From positions 62,001 through 126,000 of the forward strand of contig NZ_JAUDBQ010000002.1 in NCBI RefSeq assembly GCF_030372105.1: 64,000 nt of DNA, in the 5' to 3' direction. The notes under the pieces were generated by a model. That model did no database searches and had not been told where the DNA came from. It worked only from the letters and a program-made list of their open reading frames with translations. Source of the DNA: Cellulomonas cellasea. Lineage in GTDB: Bacteria > Actinomycetota > Actinomycetes > Actinomycetales > Cellulomonadaceae. Both the position numbers and the translations under genes were made by a program. This document shows, piece by piece, positions 43,212 through 56,006 of this stretch (its first letter is position 1; every line of letters begins with the position of its first letter).

Positions 43212-43310
43212 ATGCGCACGCGCACGCACGCCGCCTCCTCCTGTTCGGCCGTCGGCGACGCGACGCAGTGTTCACACACGCGGTGCTGTCGCACGCACTG
43301 CTGTCGATAG
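43212..43310 (+). CDS. Cysteine-rich leader peptide (uORF) upstream of cysK
   Basis: 32 codons from ATG at 43212 with a good GAGGGTGAG site. The peptide has six Cys, and its end reads [12 protein letters not shown] then stop: two Cys-Cys pairs in the last eight codons. It starts about 36 bases into the predicted transcript. A 9-bp stem begins directly after its stop codon (43311). This is the arrangement of a translation-coupled attenuator in which ribosomes starved for Cys-tRNA stall at the pairs. Poly-Cys uORFs with such a role have been reported in mycobacteria. The peptide itself probably has no other function. Confidence 0.75.
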
Positions 43311-46430: not shown

Positions 46431-46477
46431 CCCACCGTGCAGGATGGGGTCTCTCGACGACGAGATGAGGCTTGGCG

Positions 46478-47506
46478 ATGCGACTCGGCTATCACACCGG
46501 CTACTGGTCCGCGGGCCCCCCGCCCGGCGCGCAGGAGGCGGTGATCGCCGCCGACCGGCTCGGGCTGGACTCGGTGTGGACGGCTGAGGCCTACGGCTCG
46601 GACGCGTTCACGCCGCTTGCCTGGTGGGGTTCGCGCACGTCGCAGATCCGTCTGGGCACGGCGATCGCGCAGCTCTCCGCCCGCACCCCGACCGCCGCCG
46701 CGATGGCCGCCCTTACGCTCGACCACCTCTCCGGCGGGCGGTTCGCCCTCGGCCTCGGAGCGTCCGGCCCGCAGGTGGTGGAGGGCTGGTACGGCCAGCC
46801 GTACCCGCGCCCGCTGGCCCGCACGCGCGAGTACATCGCCATCGTGCGCGACGTCCTGGCCCGCGAGGCGCCCGTCACGCATGACGGCGACTTCTACCAG
46901 CTCCCCTATGTGGGCGGCGCCGGGCTGGGCAAGGCGCTGCGCTCCACGGTGCACCCGCTGCGCGCCGACCTGCCGATCCTGCTTGCCGCGGAGGGCCCCA
47001 AGAACATCGCCCTCGCCGCGGAGATCTGTGACGGCTGGCTGCCGATGTTCTACTCCCCGCGGATGGACGCCACGTACCGCGAGCTGCTCGCGGACGGCTT
47101 CGCCAAGCGGCCCGCCGGGGCCAGCGCCGTCGAGGACTTCGAGGTGACGGCCACCGTCCCCGTGGTGCTCGGCGACGACGTGGAGAAGGCGGCCGACACC
47201 GTGCGGCCGTTCATCGCGCTGTACGCGGGCGGCATGGGGGCGAAGGGCGCCAACTTCCACCGCGACGTGCTGGACCGCCTCGGGTACGGCGAGGCCTGCG
47301 ACGAGATCCAGGCGCACTACCTGGAGGGCCGGCGGGCGGAGGCCGCGGCGGCGGTGCCGCTCGAGCTCGTGCAGGACATCGCGCTGGTGGGGCCGCCGGA
47401 GGCGATCCGCGCGCAGCTTCCCGCATGGAAGGACACCGCGATCACGACGATGCTCGTGCAGACGGACCCGAGGATGCTGCCGGCGATCGCCGACCTGCTC
47501 GCCTGA
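46478..47506 (+). CDS. Luciferase-like monooxygenase-family oxidoreductase, probably F420-dependent
   Basis: 342 aa from ATG at 46478, with GAGATGAGG upstream; the TTG two codons earlier is less likely. It is a TIM-barrel LLM protein: MRLGYHTGYWSAGPP, AADRLGLDSVWTAEAYGSDAF, LGTAIAQLSARTP, LGLGASGPQVVEGWYG, and PILLAAEGPKN. The WYG and ASGPQV features are those of the F420-dependent LLM subgroup rather than FMN enzymes. The substrate is unknown. If the F420 assignment is right, it would draw on the cofactor salvaged at 8-13 kb. Confidence 0.85.
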   Translation: MRLGYHTGYWSAGPPPGAQEAVIAADRLGLDSVWTAEAYGSDAFTPLAWWGSRTSQIRLGTAIAQLSARTPTAAAMAALTLDHLSGGRFALGLGASGPQVVEGWYGQPYPRPLARTREYIAIVRDVLAREAPVTHDGDFYQLPYVGGAGLGKALRSTVHPLRADLPILLAAEGPKNIALAAEICDGWLPMFYSPRMDATYRELLADGFAKRPAGASAVEDFEVTATVPVVLGDDVEKAADTVRPFIALYAGGMGAKGANFHRDVLDRLGYGEACDEIQAHYLEGRRAEAAAAVPLELVQDIALVGPPEAIRAQLPAWKDTAITTMLVQTDPRMLPAIADLLA

Positions 47507-47515
47507 GTCCCTCGG

Positions 47516-47553
47516 CCGCCGCGGGCGCCTGCTGTGCAGTGGGCCCGCGGCGG
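47516..47553 (+). terminator. Hairpin after the LLM gene
   Basis: An 11-bp perfect stem ccgccgcgggc/gcccgcggcgg (47516-47526, 47543-47553), ten bases after the stop. Confidence 0.65.
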
Positions 47554-47589
47554 AGCCATGCCCGGGCGCCCGACTGTCGAGACGACTCG

Positions 47590-47618
47590 TTGCCTCACCA
47601 CCCTCTGACCGCTACTCT
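47590..47618 (+). promoter_or_regulatory. Promoter of the organosulfur operon
   Basis: TTGCCT (47590-47595) and TACTCT (47613-47618) with a 17-base spacer. The predicted start near 47625 gives a leader of about 305 bases before the ATPase gene, including the poly-Cys uORF. Confidence 0.65.
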
Positions 47619-47693
47619 CATCCCGTTCCCACCAGGTGAACACCGCGTCTCAGAGTATGGACGCACCTCACGAGCGGAGAGGCAGGCCGGCCG

Positions 47694-47789
47694 ATGTCGC
47701 ACCCGATGCCCGTCTCCCGCCACCGCCAGAGCCGCTGTCGGCCCCGCCGCTGCTGTTGTTGTCCGCAGCCGCACCGCCCCCGCGTCTGA
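47694..47789 (+). CDS. Poly-cysteine leader peptide (uORF) upstream of the organosulfur operon
   Basis: 31 codons from ATG at 47694, with GGAGAGGCAGG upstream. The peptide is Arg/Pro-rich and contains SRCRPRRCCCCPQPHRPRV: one Cys, then four consecutive Cys codons (TGC TGT TGT TGT) eleven codons before the stop. This closely resembles the poly-Cys uORFs described ahead of mycobacterial sulfur genes. It is best explained as a Cys-tRNA sensor controlling translation or transcription of the downstream transporter and sulfur-assimilation genes. It lies in neither of the two long open frames that cross this region. Confidence 0.8.
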   Translation: MSHPMPVSRHRQSRCRPRRCCCCPQPHRPRV

Positions 47790-47879
47790 CGCCTCGACGC
47801 GCACCACGACCCCGGTCCCCCGCCGGGCTCGCATGGGCCGGTGCACGACCTCGCCCGCAGTGTGCGCGGCACCCGGCCC
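47781..47879 (+). promoter_or_regulatory. Structured RNA between poly-Cys leader and ATPase gene
   Basis: Stem cgcgtc/gacgcg (47781-47786, 47796-47801) includes the leader stop codon. A second stem, gggccggtg with cacccggccc (47835-47843, 47870-47879, one bulged C), lies closer to the first structural gene. These could be alternative structures set by ribosome position. Confidence 0.45.
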
Positions 47880-47930
47880 CGGTGAACCCGCCTGAGCCGA
47901 CAGTGCCCGCCTGACCCCCCCAGGACGGCC

Positions 47931-48767
47931 ATGGCCATCACGACCACCAGCACGCGCTCGGCGCTCGACGTCGCCCTGAGCGGGGTGCGCCGCACCTTCA
48001 CCACGCCCACCGGTCCCCGCACCGTCCTCTCCGGCGTCGACCTGCGGCTGCGCGCCGGGGAGATCGTCGCGATCCTCGGGCCCTCGGGCTGCGGCAAGTC
48101 GACGCTGCTGCGCCAGGTGTCCGGCCTGGACACGCCCGACGCCGGCCAGATCCTCATCGACGGCGGCCCGGTCACCGGCATCGACCGGCGCACCGCCGTC
48201 GCGTTCCAGGAGCCCCGGCTGCTCCCCTGGCAGACCCTCAGCCAGAACGTCGCGCTCGGGCTCCCCCGCGGGACGCCGAAGCCAGAGGGCCGCCAGCGCG
48301 TGGCCGAGCTGCTCGAGCTGGTCGGCCTGACCGCGTCGGCCGGGCTGCGACCGCGCCAGGTGTCCGGCGGCATGGCGCAGCGCGCGTCACTGGCACGGGC
48401 CCTGGCCCGCAACCCCGGCGTGCTGCTGCTCGACGAGCCCTTCGGCGCCCTCGACGCCCTCACGCGCCTGAAGATGCAGGACCTGCTGCTCGACGTGCAC
48501 GCCGCCGAGCCCACCACCGTGCTGCTCGTGACGCATGACGTGGAGGAGGCGCTCTACCTCGCCGACCGCGTGATCCTGCTGACCACCCTCGCCGCCGAGC
48601 ACGCCGCGGACAGCTCGATCCAGTCCGTCATCGACGTGCCGGGCGCACGCCCCCGCGACCGCGCCGACGCGGCCCTCGCCGCGCTGCGCGCGAGCCTGCT
48701 CGAGGGACTCGGCGTCGACACCCACCACCGGCCCCAGCCGGACCCTGATCAGCACCACTCCATCTGA
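47931..48767 (+). CDS. Sulfonate/sulfone-type ABC transporter, ATP-binding protein (SsuB/TauB-like)
   Basis: 278 aa, ATG at 47931 after AGGACGG. Walker A is GPSGCGKST, the Q-loop VAFQEPRLLPWQ is the hallmark of the nitrate/taurine/sulfonate ATPases, the signature is VSGGMAQR (Met in place of Gln, as in SsuB), Walker B LLLDEPFGALDAL and switch His VTHDVEEA. The C-terminal 35 residues are Asp/His/Gln-rich. First structural gene after the poly-Cys leader, followed by binding protein and permease. Confidence 0.9.
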   Translation: MAITTTSTRSALDVALSGVRRTFTTPTGPRTVLSGVDLRLRAGEIVAILGPSGCGKSTLLRQVSGLDTPDAGQILIDGGPVTGIDRRTAVAFQEPRLLPWQTLSQNVALGLPRGTPKPEGRQRVAELLELVGLTASAGLRPRQVSGGMAQRASLARALARNPGVLLLDEPFGALDALTRLKMQDLLLDVHAAEPTTVLLVTHDVEEALYLADRVILLTTLAAEHAADSSIQSVIDVPGARPRDRADAALAALRASLLEGLGVDTHHRPQPDPDQHHSI

Positions 48768-48797
48768 CCTGCCCCCACCCCCTCCCCTGGAGAGACC

Positions 48798-49850
48798 ATG
48801 CAGATCCGTACCGCCCTGTCGCTGACAGCGACGACGCTCGCCGCCGCCCTGCTGCTCAGCGGGTGCGTGAGCGGAGAGGGTGGCGTCACCGACAAGGCCC
48901 CCGAGCCCGACGCCACCGAGGTCGCCGCCGAGGGCTGGAGCGCCGACACGCTCACGCTCGACTTCGCGACGTACAACCCGCTGAGCCTGGTCATCAAGGA
49001 CCAGGGCTGGCTCGAGGCCACGCTCGGCGACGACGTGACGGTCAACTGGGTGCAGTCGGCAGGCTCGAACAAGGCCAACGAGGCGCTCCGCGCGGGCGCC
49101 ATCGACGTGGGCTCCACAGCCGGATCGGCCGCGCTGCTCGCCCGCTCGAACGGCTCGCCGATCGTCGCCATCGACATCTACTCGCAGCCGGAGTGGGCCG
49201 CGATCGTCGTCCCGCAGGGCTCGGACATCACGTCGGTGGCCGACCTCAAGGGCAAGTCGGTGGCCGCCACCAAGGGCACCGACCCGTACTTCTTCCTGCT
49301 GCAGGCGCTCGAGGAGGCCGGCGTCGGCCTCGACGAGGTCGAGGTGCAGAACCTGCAGCACGCCGACGGCAAGGCAGCGCTCGAGTCGGGCGCCGTCGCC
49401 GCGTGGTCCGGGCTGGACCCGCTGATGGCGGCCAGCGAGGCCACCGCGGGCTCGAAGCTCGTCTACCGGAACATCGACTTCAACACCTACGGGTTCCTCA
49501 ACGCCACGGAGACGTTCCTGGAGAAGAGCCCCGACCTGGCGCAGCTCGTGGTGGACGCCTATGAGAAGGCGCGCGCCTGGGCCCAGGAGAACCCCGACGA
49601 GGTCGTCGCGATCCTCGCCGAGGTCGCGGGCATCGACCCGGCCGTCGCGAAGACGGTGATCACCGAGCGCACCAACCTCGCGGTCGACCCGGCCCCGGGC
49701 GAGGCGCAGCGCAAGGTGCTCGAGATCGTCGGCCCGATCTTCGTCGAGTCCGGCGATGTCGCCAGCCAGCAGCTCATCGACGACGCCCTCGCGAAGCTGC
49801 TCGACGACACGTACGTGAAGAAGGCCGACCCCGCGAACGTCACGGGCTGA
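48798..49850 (+). CDS. Sulfonate/sulfone-type ABC transporter, substrate-binding lipoprotein (SsuA-like)
   Basis: 350 aa, ATG at 48798 with GGAGAG upstream. Lipobox LSGC gives Cys23. The mature domain is NMT1/SsuA-like: LDFATYNPLSLVIKDQGWLEATLGDDVTVNW, GSNKANEALRAGAIDVGSTAGSAALLA, and KSVAATKGTDPYFFLLQAL. It binds an aliphatic sulfonate or related anion. The next gene is the permease, but a strong hairpin lies between them. Confidence 0.9.
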   Translation: MQIRTALSLTATTLAAALLLSGCVSGEGGVTDKAPEPDATEVAAEGWSADTLTLDFATYNPLSLVIKDQGWLEATLGDDVTVNWVQSAGSNKANEALRAGAIDVGSTAGSAALLARSNGSPIVAIDIYSQPEWAAIVVPQGSDITSVADLKGKSVAATKGTDPYFFLLQALEEAGVGLDEVEVQNLQHADGKAALESGAVAAWSGLDPLMAASEATAGSKLVYRNIDFNTYGFLNATETFLEKSPDLAQLVVDAYEKARAWAQENPDEVVAILAEVAGIDPAVAKTVITERTNLAVDPAPGEAQRKVLEIVGPIFVESGDVASQQLIDDALAKLLDDTYVKKADPANVTG

Positions 49851-49860
49851 CGCACCACAG

Positions 49861-49893
49861 CCCCTGGCCCGGCCCGCGCGGCCGGGCCAGGGG
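49861..49893 (+). terminator. Strong hairpin between binding-protein and permease genes
   Basis: A perfect 14-bp stem (cccctggcccggcc, 49861-49874, with 49880-49893) and a five-base loop, ten bases past the binding-protein stop and inside the operon. Partial termination or 3'-end protection would raise binding-protein output over the permease. Confidence 0.7.
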
Positions 49894-49949
49894 CGCCACC
49901 GTCGCCTCCCCCGCGGCGGAACCGCACCACGCACACCTCAGGAGCACTC

Positions 49950-50870
49950 ATGTCCGTCCCCGTCGGGATCCCCGGTTACGGCCCGGTCACGGACGACGCC
50001 GGCCGGACGCTGCCCGCCGTGCGCGCGTTCAACCCGTTCGACACCGCGGGCCGTGAGCCCTCCGGCCCGCACCGGTCGGATGACACGCCCCCGGGCCGGC
50101 GACCGCGTGCCCTCACCGAGCGTCGGGCAGTGCGAGCCCTGGCGGGCCTGGCGCTGCCCGCGCTCCTACTGGCGCTGTGGCAGTGGGTCACCACCACCGG
50201 GCGGGTGCCCACGTACCAGCTCCCGACGCCCGAGTCGGTCTGGCTGGCGGCGATCGACCTGGCCGAGCGCGGGCTGCTCGGCCAGTACGTGGCCATCTCG
50301 ACGCAGCGCGTGCTCATCGGCTTCGCGGTGGGCGCGCTGCTCGGGCTCGCCGTGGGCGCGCTGGTCGGGCTGTCCCGGGTCAGCGACGTGCTGCTGGCCC
50401 CGACGCTCGGCGCGGTGCGCGCCGTCCCGTCCCTCGCCTGGGTGCCGCTGCTGCTGCTGTGGGTCGGCATCAACGAGGACTCCAAGCTCATCCTCATCGC
50501 GATCGGCTCGTTCTTCCCGGTCTACACGACCGTCGCTGGCGCGCTGCGGCATGTGGACCCGCACCTGGTCGAGGCCGGCCGCGCGTACGGGCTGACCGGC
50601 GCGCGATTGCTCGCCCGCGTCCAGCTCCCCGCCGTGGTGCCCACAGTCATCTCCGGGCTGCGGCTCGCCCTCGCGCAGTCGTGGCTGTTCCTGGTGGCCG
50701 CGGAGTTGCTGAACTCCTCGATGGGCCTGGGCTTCCTGCTGCTCGACTCCGGCCAGAACGGCCGCATCGACCGGATGATCCTCGCGATCGTGCTGCTCGC
50801 CGTGCTCGGGAAGCTCACCGACTCGCTGATCGGCGTGGCCGAGAAGTCGCTGCTGCGGAGGTGGGCGTGA
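49950..50870 (+). CDS. Sulfonate/sulfone-type ABC transporter, permease (SsuC-like)
   Basis: 306 aa, ATG at 49950 with AGGAGC upstream. A polar N-terminal extension of about 60 residues precedes six helices. The coupling loop is VEAGRAYGLTGARLLARVQLPAVVP, and LWQWVTTTGRVPTYQLPTPESVW is typical of SsuC/TauC. It shares the GTGA start-stop overlap with the acyl-CoA ligase gene, so transport and metabolism genes form one transcript. Confidence 0.9.
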   Translation: MSVPVGIPGYGPVTDDAGRTLPAVRAFNPFDTAGREPSGPHRSDDTPPGRRPRALTERRAVRALAGLALPALLLALWQWVTTTGRVPTYQLPTPESVWLAAIDLAERGLLGQYVAISTQRVLIGFAVGALLGLAVGALVGLSRVSDVLLAPTLGAVRAVPSLAWVPLLLLWVGINEDSKLILIAIGSFFPVYTTVAGALRHVDPHLVEAGRAYGLTGARLLARVQLPAVVPTVISGLRLALAQSWLFLVAAELLNSSMGLGFLLLDSGQNGRIDRMILAIVLLAVLGKLTDSLIGVAEKSLLRRWA

Positions 50871-52951
50871 GCACCGACGTGGGCAACCCGACGATCTCCG
50901 CGCTGCAGATCGAGGACCGCGCCTTCCCGGCGCCCGCCGAGTTCGCCGCGCAGGCCAACATCGGCCCGGCCGAGCACGCCCGGCTCCTGGCCGCGGCCGC
51001 CGCCGACCCGATCGCCTTCTGGGAGGACGCCGCGCGCCGGCTGCAGTGGGACACCCCCTGGCACACCGCGCACACCTGGTCCCCCGCGGTTCCCGTCCCC
51101 AACGGCGAGCCCGACGAGCTGACAGTGCCGCAGGCGCAGTGGTTCGTGGGCGGGCGGCTCAACGCGGCCGTGAACTGCGTGGACCGGCACGTCGACGCTG
51201 GGCGCGGCGACAAGGTCGCATTGCACGTCGAGGGCGAGCGGGGCGACCGCCGCTCCATCACCTACGCCCAGCTCCAGCGCGAGGTCGCGCAGGCCGCGCA
51301 CGCGCTGACCGCGCTCGGCGTCGGCAAGGGCGACCGGGTGGTCGTCTACCTGCCCGTCATCGCCGAGACGGTGGTCGTGACCCTGGCCATCGCCCGGATC
51401 GGCGCGGTGCACTCGCTGGTCTTCGGCGGGTTCTCCGCGGAGGCCGTCCGGTTCCGTGTGCAGGACACCGGCGCCAAGGTGCTGGTCACCAGCGACGGGC
51501 AGTTCCGCCGCGGCCAGGCCATCGAGGTGAAGTCCGCCGCCGACGCCGCGGTCGAGGGCATCGACCACGTGGAGCACGTGCTCGTGGTGCGCCGCACCGG
51601 CCAGGACGTCGCGTGGACGCCGGGCCGGGACGTGTGGTGGCACGACGCCATCGCCGCCGTGCCGGACGTGCACGAGGCCGAGTCCTTCGACTCCGAGACC
51701 CCGCTGTTCATCATCTACACCTCGGGCACCACCGGGAAGCCGAAGGGCCTGGTGCACACCACCGGCGGCTACCTCACGCACGCCGCCTGGGCGCACTGGG
51801 CGCACTTCGACGCCAAGCCCGACGACGTGCACTGGTGCACCGCCGACCTGGCCTGGGTCACCGCGCACACCTACGAGATCTACGGCCCACTGGCCAACGG
51901 GCTCACGCAGGTCATCTACGAGGGCACGCCCGACACCCCGCACCGCGAGCGCCACCTCGAGGTCATCGAGCGCTACGGCGTCACGACGTACTACACGGCC
52001 CCCACGCTGCTGCGCACGCTCATGACGTGGTTCCCGGACGGCCTGCCGGGCACGTACGACCTGTCGAGCATCCGCCTGCTCGGCACCGTCGGCGAGGCCA
52101 TCAACCCCGAGGCGTGGGTGTGGTTCCACGAGCAGGTCGGCGGTGGCCGCGCGCCGATCGTCGACACCTGGTGGCAGTCCGAGACGGGCGCGGCGATGAT
52201 CGCGCCGCTGCCCGGCTCGACAACCCTCAAGCCGGGCTCGGCGACCCGCCCGCTGCCGGGCATCTCCGCGAAGGTGGTGGACGACCAGGGCGAGCCGGTG
52301 CCGTTCGGCTCGGGCGGCTACTTGGTCGTCGACCGCCCGTGGCCCGGCATGGCGCGCACGGTCTGGGGTGACGAGCAGCGTTACCTCGACGCGTACTGGC
52401 GCCGCTTCGCCGGGCGGGGCGTCGACGGCCAGGGGTACTTCCTGGCGGGTGACGGCGCGTCGTGGGACGCGGACGGCGACATCTGGCTGCTCGGCCGCAT
52501 CGACGACGTGGTCAACGTCTCCGGCCACCGGCTGTCCACCATCGAGATCGAGTCGGCCCTCGTCGCGCACCCAGCGGTGGGCGAGGCGGGCGTCGCCGGT
52601 GTCCGCGACGCGGTGACCGGCCAGGCCGTCGCGGCCTTCGTCATCCCGACGCAGGCGCCCGCGCGCCATGCGGACGGCACGGTGGACACGGCCGCTTGGC
52701 ACGCCGCCACGGCCGCGCTGCGCGAGGACCTGCGCGCCCATGTCGGGCGGGCCATCGGGCCGGTGACCAAGCCCCGCGACGTGCTACTCGTCCCCGACCT
52801 GCCCAAGACCCGTTCGGGCAAGATCATGCGCCGCCTGCTGGCCCAGCTCCTCGACGGGGACCCGCTCGGCGACGTGACGTCGCTGCAGAACCCCTGGGCC
52901 GTCGACGACATCGCCGAGCTGCTCGCGACCCGCCCAGGATCACGCGCCTGA
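50867..52951 (+). CDS. Acetyl-CoA synthetase-type acyl-CoA ligase (AMP-forming) in the organosulfur operon
   Basis: 694 aa from GTG at 50867, overlapping the permease stop. It is close to Acs: IIYTSGTTGKPKGLVHTTGGYL, ADLAWVTAHTYEIYGPLANG, WWQSETGAAMI, and the C-terminal PKTRSGKIMRRLL with the acetylatable catalytic Lys. The Trp that limits Acs to acetate (DTWWQSETG) is present, favouring acetate or a two-carbon acid. The location between sulfonate transport and SfnG suggests either activation of a C2 sulfur-derived acid (for example sulfoacetate) or supply of acetyl-CoA for O-acetyl amino acids. Neither is proven. Confidence 0.88.
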   Translation: MSTDVGNPTISALQIEDRAFPAPAEFAAQANIGPAEHARLLAAAAADPIAFWEDAARRLQWDTPWHTAHTWSPAVPVPNGEPDELTVPQAQWFVGGRLNAAVNCVDRHVDAGRGDKVALHVEGERGDRRSITYAQLQREVAQAAHALTALGVGKGDRVVVYLPVIAETVVVTLAIARIGAVHSLVFGGFSAEAVRFRVQDTGAKVLVTSDGQFRRGQAIEVKSAADAAVEGIDHVEHVLVVRRTGQDVAWTPGRDVWWHDAIAAVPDVHEAESFDSETPLFIIYTSGTTGKPKGLVHTTGGYLTHAAWAHWAHFDAKPDDVHWCTADLAWVTAHTYEIYGPLANGLTQVIYEGTPDTPHRERHLEVIERYGVTTYYTAPTLLRTLMTWFPDGLPGTYDLSSIRLLGTVGEAINPEAWVWFHEQVGGGRAPIVDTWWQSETGAAMIAPLPGSTTLKPGSATRPLPGISAKVVDDQGEPVPFGSGGYLVVDRPWPGMARTVWGDEQRYLDAYWRRFAGRGVDGQGYFLAGDGASWDADGDIWLLGRIDDVVNVSGHRLSTIEIESALVAHPAVGEAGVAGVRDAVTGQAVAAFVIPTQAPARHADGTVDTAAWHAATAALREDLRAHVGRAIGPVTKPRDVLLVPDLPKTRSGKIMRRLLAQLLDGDPLGDVTSLQNPWAVDDIAELLATRPGSRA

Positions 52952-53017
52952 GCCCACCACGCCAACGCACCACCACCACCGCCCGCCACACCGCGCCATC
53001 AACAGCAGGGGGACCCG

Positions 53018-54154
53018 ATGAGCACCGACGCACGCACCGCCCACGCGACCACGGCCGACAGCGCTCCCGACGACCTGAAGTTCGCGTACTGGGTCCCGAA
53101 CGTCTCGGGCGGCCTGGTGGTCAGCGACATCGAGCAGCGCACCGACTGGGGCTACCAGTACAACCGCGACCTGGCGCGCACGGCCGAGGCGAACGGCTTC
53201 GAGTACGCGCTCTCGCAGGTGCGCTACGCGGCCAGCTACGGCGCGGCGCAGCAGCATGAGTCGACGAGCTTCTCCCTCGCGCTGCTGCTGGCCACCGAGC
53301 GGCTCAAGGTCATCGCCGCCGTGCACCCCGGCCTGTGGCACCCGGGCGTGCTGGCGAAGTTCATCATCACCGCCGACCACCTCTCGGGCGGGCGGGCCGC
53401 CGTCAATGTGGTGTCCGGGTGGCTCAAGCAGGAGTTCACGAACTTCGGCGAGCCGTGGCTCGACCACGACGAGCGGTACCGCCGCACCGCCGAGTTCATC
53501 CAGGTGCTCCGCGGGCTGTGGACCGAGCAGGACTTCGAGCTGCTCGGCGACTTCTACCGCATCCACGACTTCACGCTGCAGCCCGCGCCCGTCGACGTCC
53601 CGGGCCGCCCGCACCCGGAGATCTTCTTCGGCGGCAACTCCACCGCCGCGCGCGCCACCGCCGGGCGGCACGCCGACTGGTACTTCTCGAATGGCAAGGA
53701 CTTCGACGGCTTCGCCGAGCAGCACCACGAGGTCTCGGCGCATGCCGAGGCCGCCGGGCGCGACGTGCGGTTCGGGCTGAACGGCTTCATGATCGTGCGC
53801 GACTCCGAGAAGGAGGCCCGCGAGGTCCTCCGGGAGATCGTCGCGAAGGCCAACAAGCCGGCCGTCGAGGGCTTCCGCGACGCCGTGACGCAGGCCGGGA
53901 AGGCCACGCGCGACGGCAAGGGCATGTGGGCCGACTCGACGTTCGAGGACCTGATCCAGTACAACGACGGTTTCCGCACTCAGCTCATCGGCACGCCGGA
54001 GCAGGTCGCGGAGCGCATGGTCGAGTACAAGAGGCGCGGCGTGGACCTGTTCCTGCTGGGCTACCTGCACTTCCAGGAGGAGATCGAGCAGTTCGGCCGT
54101 GCCGTGCTGCCGCTCGTCCGAGAGATCGAAGCCGAGGAGGCACGAGTCGCATGA
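53018..54154 (+). CDS. sfnG: Dimethylsulfone monooxygenase-like FMNH2-dependent enzyme (SfnG-like)
   Basis: 378 aa, ATG at 53018 with AGGGGG upstream. The SfnG opening FAYWVPNVSGGLVVSDIEQRT is followed by YNRDLARTAEANGFEYALSQVRY, LSGGRAAVNVVSGW, and PEIFFGGNSTAARATAGRHADW. SfnG cleaves dimethylsulfone to methanesulfinate with FMNH2 and O2, and the SsuD relatives release sulfite from sulfonates. No flavin reductase gene is nearby, so FMNH2 must come from elsewhere. It overlaps the sulfhydrylase gene by ATGA. Confidence 0.88.
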   Translation: MSTDARTAHATTADSAPDDLKFAYWVPNVSGGLVVSDIEQRTDWGYQYNRDLARTAEANGFEYALSQVRYAASYGAAQQHESTSFSLALLLATERLKVIAAVHPGLWHPGVLAKFIITADHLSGGRAAVNVVSGWLKQEFTNFGEPWLDHDERYRRTAEFIQVLRGLWTEQDFELLGDFYRIHDFTLQPAPVDVPGRPHPEIFFGGNSTAARATAGRHADWYFSNGKDFDGFAEQHHEVSAHAEAAGRDVRFGLNGFMIVRDSEKEAREVLREIVAKANKPAVEGFRDAVTQAGKATRDGKGMWADSTFEDLIQYNDGFRTQLIGTPEQVAERMVEYKRRGVDLFLLGYLHFQEEIEQFGRAVLPLVREIEAEEARVA

Positions 54155-55521
54155 CCGACCGACGCTGGGGATTCCGCACGCGGGCCCTGCACGCAGGGGG
54201 GATCCCCGACGCCGCCACTGGCGCGCGCGCCGTCCCCATCTATCAGACGACCTCGTTCGTCTTCCAGGACACGGACGACGCCGCGAACCTGTTCGCGCTG
54301 CAGAAGTACGGGAACATCTACTCCCGCATCGGCAACCCCACCGTCGCGGCCCTCGAGGAGCGGATCGCGTCGCTCGAGGGCGGCATCGGCGCGGTGGCCA
54401 CCGCCTCGGGCATGGCGGCGGAGTTCATCACGTTCGCCGCGCTCGTGGGCGCCGGCGACCATGTGGTCGCGTCCGCGCAGCTCTACGGCGGCACCGTCAC
54501 CCAGCTCGACGTGACGCTGCGCCGGTTCGGCGTGGAGACGACGTTCGTCGCGGGCACCGACCCGGCGGACTACGCCGCGGCGATCCGCCCCGAGACGAAG
54601 GTCGTCTACACCGAGGTCGTCGCCAACCCGTCCGGGGAGGTCGCCGACCTGGAAGGGCTCGCCGAGGTGGCGCATGCCGCCGGCGTCCCGCTGGTGGTGG
54701 ACGCCACGCTGTCGACGCCGTACCTGATCCGGCCCATCGAGCACGGCGCGGACATCGTCATCCACTCCGCCACCAAGTTCCTGGGCGGCCACGGCACCAC
54801 CCTGGGCGGCGTGGTCGTCGAGTCGGGCCGGTTCAACTGGGGCAACGGCAAGTTCCCGCAGATGACCGAGCCTGTGCCGTCCTACGGCGGCGTGAGCTGG
54901 TGGGAGAACTTCGGCGAGTACGGGTTCCTCACCAAGCTGCGCAGCGAGCAGCTCCGGGACATCGGCCCGGCGCTGTCCCCGCAGTCGGCATTCCAGCTGC
55001 TGCAGGGCGTGGAGACGCTCCCCCAGCGCCTCGACGCCCACCTGGCGAACGCGCGCGCTGTGGCCGAGTGGCTCGAGGCGGACGACCGTGTCGCCTCCGT
55101 CGCATGGGCCGGGCTGCCCAGCCACCCGCACTATGAGCGGGCCCTGCGCTACCTGCCCGCCGGCCCGGGCGCGGTGTTCGCGTTCCGCCTGGCGGCCACG
55201 GCCGACCGCACCGGACGCGACGTGGGACGCAGGTTCATCGAGTCGCTCCAGCTCGCGAGCCACCTCGCGAACGTCGGCGACTCGCGCACCCTGGTGATCC
55301 ACCCGGCGTCCACGACGCACCAGCAGCTCAGCCCCGAGCAGCTGCTCACCGCGGGCGTCCCCGAGGACCTGGTGCGGATCAGCGTCGGACTGGAGGACGT
55401 CGAGGACATCCTCTGGGACCTGGACCAGGCCCTGGCGGCCGCGATCGAGCCCGTCGCCGAGCCCGCGCCCGTGCCAGCAGCCGAGTCCGCCTCCGGGGAT
55501 GTCGTGGAGGTGGCCCGATGA
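54151..55521 (+). CDS. O-acetylhomoserine/O-acetylserine sulfhydrylase
   Basis: 456 aa from ATG at 54151, overlapping the sfnG-like stop. It is a Cys/Met-metabolism PLP enzyme: TRALHAGGIPD, YSRIGNPTVAALEERIASLEGG, ATASGMAA, Asp in LVVDATLSTPYL and the PLP Lys in IHSATKFLGGHG. The long insert with EPVPSYGGVSWWENFGEYGFLTKLR is typical of O-acetylhomoserine sulfhydrylases (MetY/CysD) that use free sulfide. The final 30 residues are a Glu/Pro/Ala tail. It would fix sulfide released from organosulfur compounds. Confidence 0.92.
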   Translation: MTDRRWGFRTRALHAGGIPDAATGARAVPIYQTTSFVFQDTDDAANLFALQKYGNIYSRIGNPTVAALEERIASLEGGIGAVATASGMAAEFITFAALVGAGDHVVASAQLYGGTVTQLDVTLRRFGVETTFVAGTDPADYAAAIRPETKVVYTEVVANPSGEVADLEGLAEVAHAAGVPLVVDATLSTPYLIRPIEHGADIVIHSATKFLGGHGTTLGGVVVESGRFNWGNGKFPQMTEPVPSYGGVSWWENFGEYGFLTKLRSEQLRDIGPALSPQSAFQLLQGVETLPQRLDAHLANARAVAEWLEADDRVASVAWAGLPSHPHYERALRYLPAGPGAVFAFRLAATADRTGRDVGRRFIESLQLASHLANVGDSRTLVIHPASTTHQQLSPEQLLTAGVPEDLVRISVGLEDVEDILWDLDQALAAAIEPVAEPAPVPAAESASGDVVEVAR

Positions 55522-56006
55522 CCGCCGACCGCACCTGGACCGGCCCCAGCGCCCCCGAGCGCCTCTCGCTGCTGCGCGGGACGCGATCGGTGGCCATTGT
55601 CGGGGCCTCGAACAACCCGTCCCGCGCGAGCTACTTCGTGGCGACGTACCTGCTCTCGAGCTCGCCGTTCGAGGTGTACTTCGTCAACCCGCGCGCCACC
55701 GAGATCCTCGGCCGGCCGGTGTACCCGTCGCTCGCGGCACTGCCCGTCGTCCCGGACCTGGTGGACGTCTTCCGCCGCCACGACGACCTGCCCACGGTCC
55801 TCGAGGAGACTGTCGCCGTGGGCGCGAAGGCGCTGTGGCTGCAGCTCGGGTCCTGGCACGAGGAGGTCGCCCGCGACGGCGAGGAGGCCGGACTGCGGGT
55901 CGTCATGGACCGCTGCCTCAAGATCGAGCACGCGCGGTTCCACGGCGGGCTGCACCTCGCCGGCTTCGACACCGGTGTGATCAGCTCGCGGCGCTCGCTC
56001 GGCTGA
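55518..56006 (+). CDS. CoA-binding domain protein (YccU-like)
   Basis: 162 aa from ATG at 55518, with an ATGA overlap. A Rossmann-type CoA_binding domain fills the protein: RSVAIVGASNNPSRASYFVATYLL, YFVNPRATEILGRPVYPSLAALP, DLVDVFRR, and VMDRCLKIEHARF near the end (a conserved Cys). It is related to the succinyl-CoA synthetase alpha N-domain. Its biochemical role is unknown. It recurs next to O-acetylhomoserine sulfhydrylase genes in actinobacteria, suggesting a link to the sulfhydrylase or the CoA ligase in this operon. Confidence 0.87.
   Translation: MTADRTWTGPSAPERLSLLRGTRSVAIVGASNNPSRASYFVATYLLSSSPFEVYFVNPRATEILGRPVYPSLAALPVVPDLVDVFRRHDDLPTVLEETVAVGAKALWLQLGSWHEEVARDGEEAGLRVVMDRCLKIEHARFHGGLHLAGFDTGVISSRRSLG

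Follow-up and report, generated by a model that had tools for sequence, protein, structure and literature searches.

A cysteine-rich upstream reading frame as a candidate ribosome-mediated attenuator of organosulfur genes in Cellulomonas cellasea

Introduction

Can the supply of cysteine be read by a ribosome translating a very short peptide, and can that reading be passed on to genes that scavenge organic sulfur compounds? The question is raised by a locus in Cellulomonas cellasea, where a leader of about 300 nt carries a short upstream open reading frame (uORF) with a run of cysteine codons. The window referred to throughout is the whole stretch of DNA analysed, 64,000 nucleotides of contig NZ_JAUDBQ010000002.1 (positions 62,001 to 126,000), and all coordinates given below are those of the window.

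The organosulfur gene cluster

A luciferase-like gene (46472-47506) is followed by the ~300-nt leader and then by seven collinear genes (47931-56006).

47922-47925, + strand: AGGA, ribosome site of the ATPase gene (from the sequence)
47931-48767, + strand: ABC transporter ATPase, SsuB/TauB/NtrD-like (PF00005; best NCBIfam match PRK11247, below cut-off)
48798-49850, + strand: substrate-binding protein, SsuA family (TIGR01728, 217.8 bits, cut-off 163.5)
49950-50870, + strand: ABC permease (PF00528)
50867-52951, + strand: acetate--CoA ligase-like protein, AcsA-type (TIGR02188, 817.9 bits, cut-off 724.95)
53018-54154, + strand: dimethylsulfone monooxygenase SfnG (TIGR04021, 620.3 bits, cut-off 382.95)
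54151-55521, + strand: Cys/Met metabolism PLP enzyme, probably of the O-acetylhomoserine sulfhydrylase type (PF01053)
55518-56006, + strand: CoA-binding protein (PF13380)

The SsuA-family and SfnG matches lie above their curated cut-offs and thus identify a cluster for organosulfur (sulfonate/dimethylsulfone) scavenging; the AcsA-like ligase is not sulfur-specific. The initial annotation spoke of a seven-gene operon, which holds for the collinear arrangement, with co-transcription of the seven genes being probable. SfnG, the SsuA-family protein and the Cys/Met PLP enzyme are sulfur-supply genes located downstream of a uORF with Cys codons, and the sulfur supplied by the operon would presumably feed the supply of cysteine.

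The substrate-binding protein is 100% identical to that of Cellulomonas timonensis SN7. In the window, as in several loci of Arthrobacter/Pseudarthrobacter, sfnG separates the ligase gene from that for the PLP enzyme; no SfnG match was seen at that position in C. timonensis (L037) or in the other loci titled Cellulomonas. A record titled Vibrio cholerae strain 35D (L116) contains an Arthrobacter-like copy of the operon and is probably mislabelled or contaminated.

A short reading frame with four consecutive Cys codons

The leader contains the following elements of a Cys leader peptide.

47676-47682, + strand: GGAGAGG, Shine-Dalgarno-like site of the uORF, 11 nt before its ATG (sequence, genus alignment)
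47694 (ATG) to 47787-47789 (TGA), + strand: 31-codon uORF encoding the Cys leader peptide MSHPMPVSRHRQSRCRPRRCCCCPQPHRPRV (sequence, genus and family comparison)
47751-47762, + strand: TGC TGT TGT TGT, four consecutive Cys codons, the proposed sensor (sequence)

A 31-codon uORF with the peptide motif RCCCCP had been proposed ahead of the seven organosulfur genes, and its presence (47694-47789) is borne out. Five of its codons specify Cys, four of them consecutively, and no ORF of up to 70 amino acids with a CCCC run arose in 5,000 dinucleotide shuffles of 47590-47930 (a CCC run arose in 11 of the same 5,000), for which reason we regard the uORF as selected rather than a product of chance. The Cys codons of the operon and its upstream gene are TGC in six cases and TGT in one (small numbers), and the block in the uORF uses TGT. 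In an alignment of five genus members the sequence TGYTGTTGT is invariant in 5/5, as is TGYTGTTGTCCGCAGCCGCACCGC.

The uORF was also said to lie hidden between two longer frames, and this is correct: + strand frames of 156 and 92 codons span it (47425-47895 and 47636-47914). G006 retains both, and G001 and G005 have neither; the Cys frame stays open throughout the five genus members, as does a minus-strand frame that reaches in from the ATPase gene across the leader. Judged by these comparisons, the Cys reading frame is under selection. Leader peptides of this kind escape routine gene calling. Searches of six leader peptides against curated NCBIfam (E up to 10) returned no family for any of the six, and at the Rfam gathering threshold the whole window yielded two tRNAs only, with no match in the leader.

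A second Cys-rich uORF with a Shine-Dalgarno-like site, encoding 32 residues, is found at 43212-43310 on the + strand and is presumably the cysK leader with which the initial annotation contrasted the present one.

Conservation of the uORF in the genus and the family

To place the uORF in a wider context, we collected the regions upstream of the orthologous ATPase gene across the GTDB family. The ATPase was matched in 71 genomes; G083 and G186 (contig ends) and G050 and G094 (less than 150 nt upstream) were dropped, leaving 67 leaders. A leader was scored positive if it contained, within 400 nt of the ATPase, a uORF of up to 70 codons with at least three Cys in eight codons (the 3-in-8 rule). 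By this rule 41/67 leaders are positive, as against 1/67 on the antisense strand and 48/1,340 shuffles; with at least four Cys in eight codons the figures are 30/67, 0/67 and 0/1,340. The positive leaders comprise 5/5 in the window's genus (g1), 29/31 in g4, 4/15 in g2, 2/3 in g18, 1/2 in g24 and 0/11 in five other genera, and small shifts in the assumed ATPase start of G103, G179 and G036 leave these group counts unchanged. Group g4 is probably mostly Cellulomonas and g2 mostly Actinotalea. G025 is counted in this 67-leader table and is absent from the tail examples and from the helix-length, arm/partner, folding and spacing sets described below.

Within the genus, the leader of G006 is 98% identical to that of the window, and among close relatives the Cys codons are not freely substituted: the run shortens from four to three and flanking Cys codons move, with the block staying in place. 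The pattern CCCPQPHR occurs once each in 5/7 genus genomes, the two members without it also being without an ATPase match at E 1e-75. Among the 214 other genomes of the GTDB family the pattern was not found, because the peptide has another sequence in them. Across the family a leader has between 1 and 7 Cys codons, the number falling to 1 in some g2 members, and clustering of the codons persists.

Less stringent searches extend the series. A uORF preceded by a Shine-Dalgarno site and carrying one or more Cys close to its end occurs in 58/67 leaders versus 82/670 shuffles, and the same with a tail of the form M-x-(x)-R-A/T-G in 38/67 leaders versus 0/670 shuffles, the tail rule having been drawn up after the data had been seen. 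Examples of the tail include CCVMQPRTGPR, CCSPHRTGS, CGCMPRAGA, CRMRQCAGM and CCRMQPRAGR. The weaker leaders form one series with the poly-Cys ones.

Named loci with enough upstream sequence (72 in total) give a similar distribution. The 3-in-8 rule is satisfied by 21/27 of the loci titled Cellulomonas, Actinotalea or Cellulosimicrobium; among the remaining ones, mostly Arthrobacter relatives and Microbacteriaceae, 3/45 pass, all three without the tail. A looser scan from L065 onwards found the tail only in L066, L067, L071 and L081, all titled Cellulomonas or Actinotalea. In the genome from which the window comes, five sulfate-reduction loci (L186-L190) have no uORF with a Shine-Dalgarno-like site and at least three Cys in eight codons. 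In three Arthrobacter/Pseudarthrobacter loci (L078, L097 and L099) the translation of the region ahead of the ATPase contains a common stretch, SDHPERxRDLD, which may represent another conserved leader element.

That the Cys run arose by chance in an unselected, GC-rich leader is scarcely credible. Shuffles made genus by genus do satisfy the 3-in-8 rule in 0-10% of cases, but an origin by chance has to contend with the total lack of CCCC runs in short ORFs of the 5,000 shuffles, the 41 to 1 imbalance between sense and antisense leaders, the recurrence of CCCPQPHR in five of seven genus genomes and the open Cys frame in all five members aligned.

Probable promoter and 5' untranslated region

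Upstream of the uORF lie two further elements.

47590-47595 and 47613-47618, + strand: promoter with -35 TTGCCT, 17-nt spacer and -10 TACTCT (from conservation)
47648-47662, + strand: degenerate palindrome copy TCTCAGAGTATGGAC, 3 mismatches to TCTCA-N5-TGAGA (from relatives' leaders)

The promoter had been described as clear. Conservation bears this out, with one of two forms of the element, GCTACTGTC or GCTACTCTC (the latter in the window and G006), kept in all five aligned genus members, and with a related element recovered in 20/31 g4 leaders by a motif script that also demanded a GTCTC/GAGAC-type word nearby. The consensus score does not: a consensus promoter scan returned no promoter-like sites and left TTGCCT and TACTCT unscored. 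Transcription probably starts near 47625, which would leave ~70 nt of transcript, including GGAGAGG, ahead of the ATG of the uORF. The conserved -10 element ends 75 nt before the ATG, with the Shine-Dalgarno-like site in between, an arrangement that, as read from the sequence, speaks against a leaderless start.

The palindrome TCTCA-N5-TGAGA was first spotted with the script that selects such words; the 67-leader count is unbiased. With up to one mismatch it is present in 36/67 family leaders versus 6/670 shuffles, and exactly in 20/67 versus 0/670. In the window's genus it is degenerate, with 0/5 leaders having a copy with up to one mismatch, and the window copy at 47648-47662 was not recovered by a 2-mismatch scan. 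Wherever both were seen, the palindrome sits downstream of the promoter-like element, and it is possibly an operator or a hairpin of the 5' untranslated region.

Alternative helices in the leader

The initial annotation mentioned paired RNA segments, and folding does predict two alternative helices, P1 and P2, that share one arm.

47771-47779, + strand: P1 5' arm GCACCGCCC, in the uORF tail (predicted)
47835-47844, + strand: shared arm GGGCCGGTGC, pairing with 47771-47779 in P1 or with 47869-47879 in P2, each helix with one bulge (predicted)
47869-47879, + strand: P2 3' arm GCACCCGGCCC (predicted)

In an alignment of 20 leaders of the Cellulomonas group (A2), the uORF tail GCACCGGC pairs with GCCGGTGC in 20/20, and all 8 bp of P1 are paired in each. 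A second helix (CGYGG/CCRCG) contains one doubly changing pair. Covariation in A2 is weak: one of 13 pairs changes on both sides, which 193/500 shuffles also reach, and the covariation score is reached by 26/500. The control shuffles are not clearly exceeded because P1 hardly varies within A2.

Between subclades P1 does vary. Leaders with the uORF arm GCACCGG have the partner CCGGTGC in 20/21 cases and CCAGCGC in 0/21 (CCGGCGC is also present in three), and those with GCGCTGG have CCAGCGC in 9/10 and CCGGTGC in 0/10. With GCGCCGG, the arm's own Watson-Crick partner is found in 2/10, a G-U partner in 2/10 and neither in 6/10, and 22/63 leaders carry none of these three arms. The P1 arm and its partner thus change together between subclades as far as the aligned sequences go, the co-change representing few evolutionary events among related rows.

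Taken singly, leaders often give no significant result. P1 in the window has 6 perfect bp, or 9 with the bulge, and its length in the genus is not above chance, 65-83% of shuffles reaching it in the 5/5 members. A perfect helix of a length significant at P <=0.05 is seen in 0/5 g1, 13/29 g4 and 3/14 g2 leaders. Genome by genome, the duplex energy between uORF tail and leader mostly fails to reach significance, with a mean z of -0.18 for the genus and -0.59 for g4. No arm-partner pair is present in 25/63 leaders with a candidate uORF, including nine g4 leaders with a poly-Cys uORF.

Ribosome spacing and the predicted exchange of helices

The remaining 38 of the 63 leaders have both arm and partner, and for these we measured how far the arm lies from the last usable Cys codon, counting from that codon's first base and leaving aside Cys codons 10 nt or less from the arm. 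Outside the genus the distance is 13 or 16 nt in 32/33 leaders (G007, with 61 nt, is the exception), and within the genus 11 nt in 5/5. In the window, 10 nt separate the end of the six-base core of the P1 arm from the stop codon. The footprint of a ribosome extends ~12 nt past the first base of its A-site codon. With spacings of this order, a ribosome stalled on the Cys codons would leave the arm free, or almost free, and one that has advanced to the stop codon would cover it.

Folding of the window leader with the ribosome at different positions predicts an exchange of this kind. With the ribosome stalled at C15, C20, C21 or C22, the mean P1 probability is 0.44-0.93 and that of P2 0-0.01; with the ribosome at the stop codon, P1 is 0 and P2 0.50-0.60. 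A ribosome at C23 already abolishes P1, positions from there to the stop codon give P2 values anywhere from 0 to 0.84, and in free RNA P2 is 0.71. Of the 38 leaders, 31 reach a predicted P1 of 0.5 or more under stall; the seven that fall short include one genus member (G005, 0.09). When the ribosome is placed at the stop codon, the freed partner pairs further downstream above the mean of 15 shuffles in 34/38 (one tie, three below).

A different reading of the peptide is that a Cys- and Arg-rich product binds metal or senses redox state, its Cys codons serving as no sensor of tRNA. Short Cys clusters can indeed bind metals, as is generally known, yet we judge this reading very improbable: Cys number and layout vary widely in relatives (CCCC, CRCCPCC, CCRSACC, CGCM), as would sooner be expected if codons are counted than if a metal is bound, and the Cys block adjoins the stop codon and P1.

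A proposed mechanism and its output step

We consider it highly probable that the leader is a ribosome-mediated cysteine attenuator. A Cys-sensing attenuator is what the initial annotation had supposed, and that idea gains support from the Cys-rich uORF in all five genus genomes with the ATPase and in 29/31 g4 leaders, from the co-changing helix arms and from the ribosome-sized spacing. In the mechanism that we propose, for which we infer the start site, uORF translation, the cysteine response and the output step (Rho-dependent termination or reduced ATPase translation), transcription would start near 47625 and the uORF would be translated from its own Shine-Dalgarno site. A shortage of Cys-tRNA would stall the ribosome on the Cys block, the uORF tail ahead of it would remain free to pair with 47835-47844 (P1), and P1 would prevent the rival hairpin P2 (47835-47844 with 47869-47879), allowing the operon to be expressed. 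When cysteine is ample, the ribosome would reach the stop codon and cover the tail arm, P2 would form and little operon expression would be expected.

How might the formation of P2 reduce expression? The region in question is as follows.

47790-47930, + strand: C-rich untranslated leader, C 0.48, G 0.31 (base composition)

One possibility, which we put somewhat short of an even chance, is that the Cys sensor acts through Rho-dependent termination in this C-rich leader once the ribosome leaves the uORF. By its excess of C over G, 47790-47930 comes 104th among 6,386 segments of the same length (141 nt) taken from the two strands, mean C is 0.42-0.56 and mean G 0.25-0.34 across the leader groups, and a scan found no terminator-like site in the leader. 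The C-richness and the lack of a terminator-like site fit an output of this type, as does the proposal of Rho-dependent termination, offered as a weak prediction, for actinobacterial cys leaders (Seliverstov 2005, PMC1262725). The Rho site is nonetheless only putative, C-richness being weak evidence in DNA so rich in GC.

The same Cys sensor might instead have a translational output, with RNA structure sealing the ribosome site of the ATPase gene when cysteine is plentiful. Sealing of a ribosome site is reported to occur in M. smegmatis, and in leaders of the Cellulomonas group CGTCC at the ribosome site of the ATPase is complementary to an upstream GGACG, the helix between them forming in the ribosome-at-stop folds of G053 and G096. 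The helix is predicted as well for the stalled state of G053 and the free state of G096, however, and the window is without the GGACGTCC element. A thermodynamic model predicts no consistent direction of change in the exposure of the ATPase ribosome site across 25 leaders, and in the window an exposure of 0.28-0.45 in every ribosome state. Masking of the site as the output is not supported by these predictions, and we regard sealing by RNA structure as a rival slightly less probable than Rho-dependent termination.

On the output step we lean slightly towards Rho-dependent termination rather than a translational effect. A wider generalisation, which we put forward as speculative and unlikely to hold in all its parts, is that of a Cys attenuator common to the Cellulomonadaceae, led by a Shine-Dalgarno site, with a near-fixed, ribosome-length spacing to the tail helix, Rho-dependent output rather than site masking, and a Cys number (1-7) that tunes the sensitivity of organosulfur uptake.

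Comparison with known systems

Work by Canestrari in 2020 reportedly describes cysteine-responsive attenuation by polycysteine leaderless short ORFs in mycobacteria. In both cases a Cys-rich uORF with contiguous Cys codons (CCCC in the window) heads a sulfur-metabolism transcript, and attenuation follows cysteine supply, as would be the case here. The mycobacterial short ORFs, however, are leaderless, whereas the uORF in the window has a Shine-Dalgarno-like site and probably a 5' untranslated region of ~70 nt; the window genes serve organosulfur uptake; and the tail helix P1 is common to many relatives. In the mycobacterial case, stalling reportedly unmasks a downstream ribosome site, whereas here the modelled exposure changes in no consistent direction.

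In the trp attenuator of E. coli, a stalled ribosome frees one helix and a ribosome at the stop codon covers it. The geometry is alike, but the leader in the window has no U-tract terminator and would respond to cysteine instead of tryptophan.

Cys leader peptides have been predicted for the cys operons of Mycobacterium and P. acnes and for cbs of B. longum, and these resemble the uORF in the window in having runs of Cys codons near the stop codon and no conserved terminator (Seliverstov 2005, PMC1262725). They precede other genes, and no conserved hairpin was found for them, whereas relatives of the window have a helix with co-changing arms. Cys-rich uORFs have also been noted in mycobacteria (Shell 2015, PMC4633059). 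The uORFC-8-2 motif upstream of cysS in Rhodobacterales (PMC8632094) likewise has tandem Cys codons in a uORF within a candidate attenuator RNA; it is alphaproteobacterial, belongs to cysS and ends with an intrinsic terminator.

Among the matches listed from open-licence papers, no prior report on the leader described here was seen. Cysteine attenuation is already known as a kind of control; the uORF in the window is led by a Shine-Dalgarno-like site and would serve organosulfur uptake. It would bring to the Cellulomonas family, and to the scavenging of organosulfur compounds (sulfonate/dimethylsulfone), a form of attenuation for which mycobacteria have supplied the experimental tests. It suggests that such control can do without leaderless initiation, and its relatives provide a graded natural set of leaders, with 1 to 7 Cys codons, for measuring how sensitivity depends on codon number.
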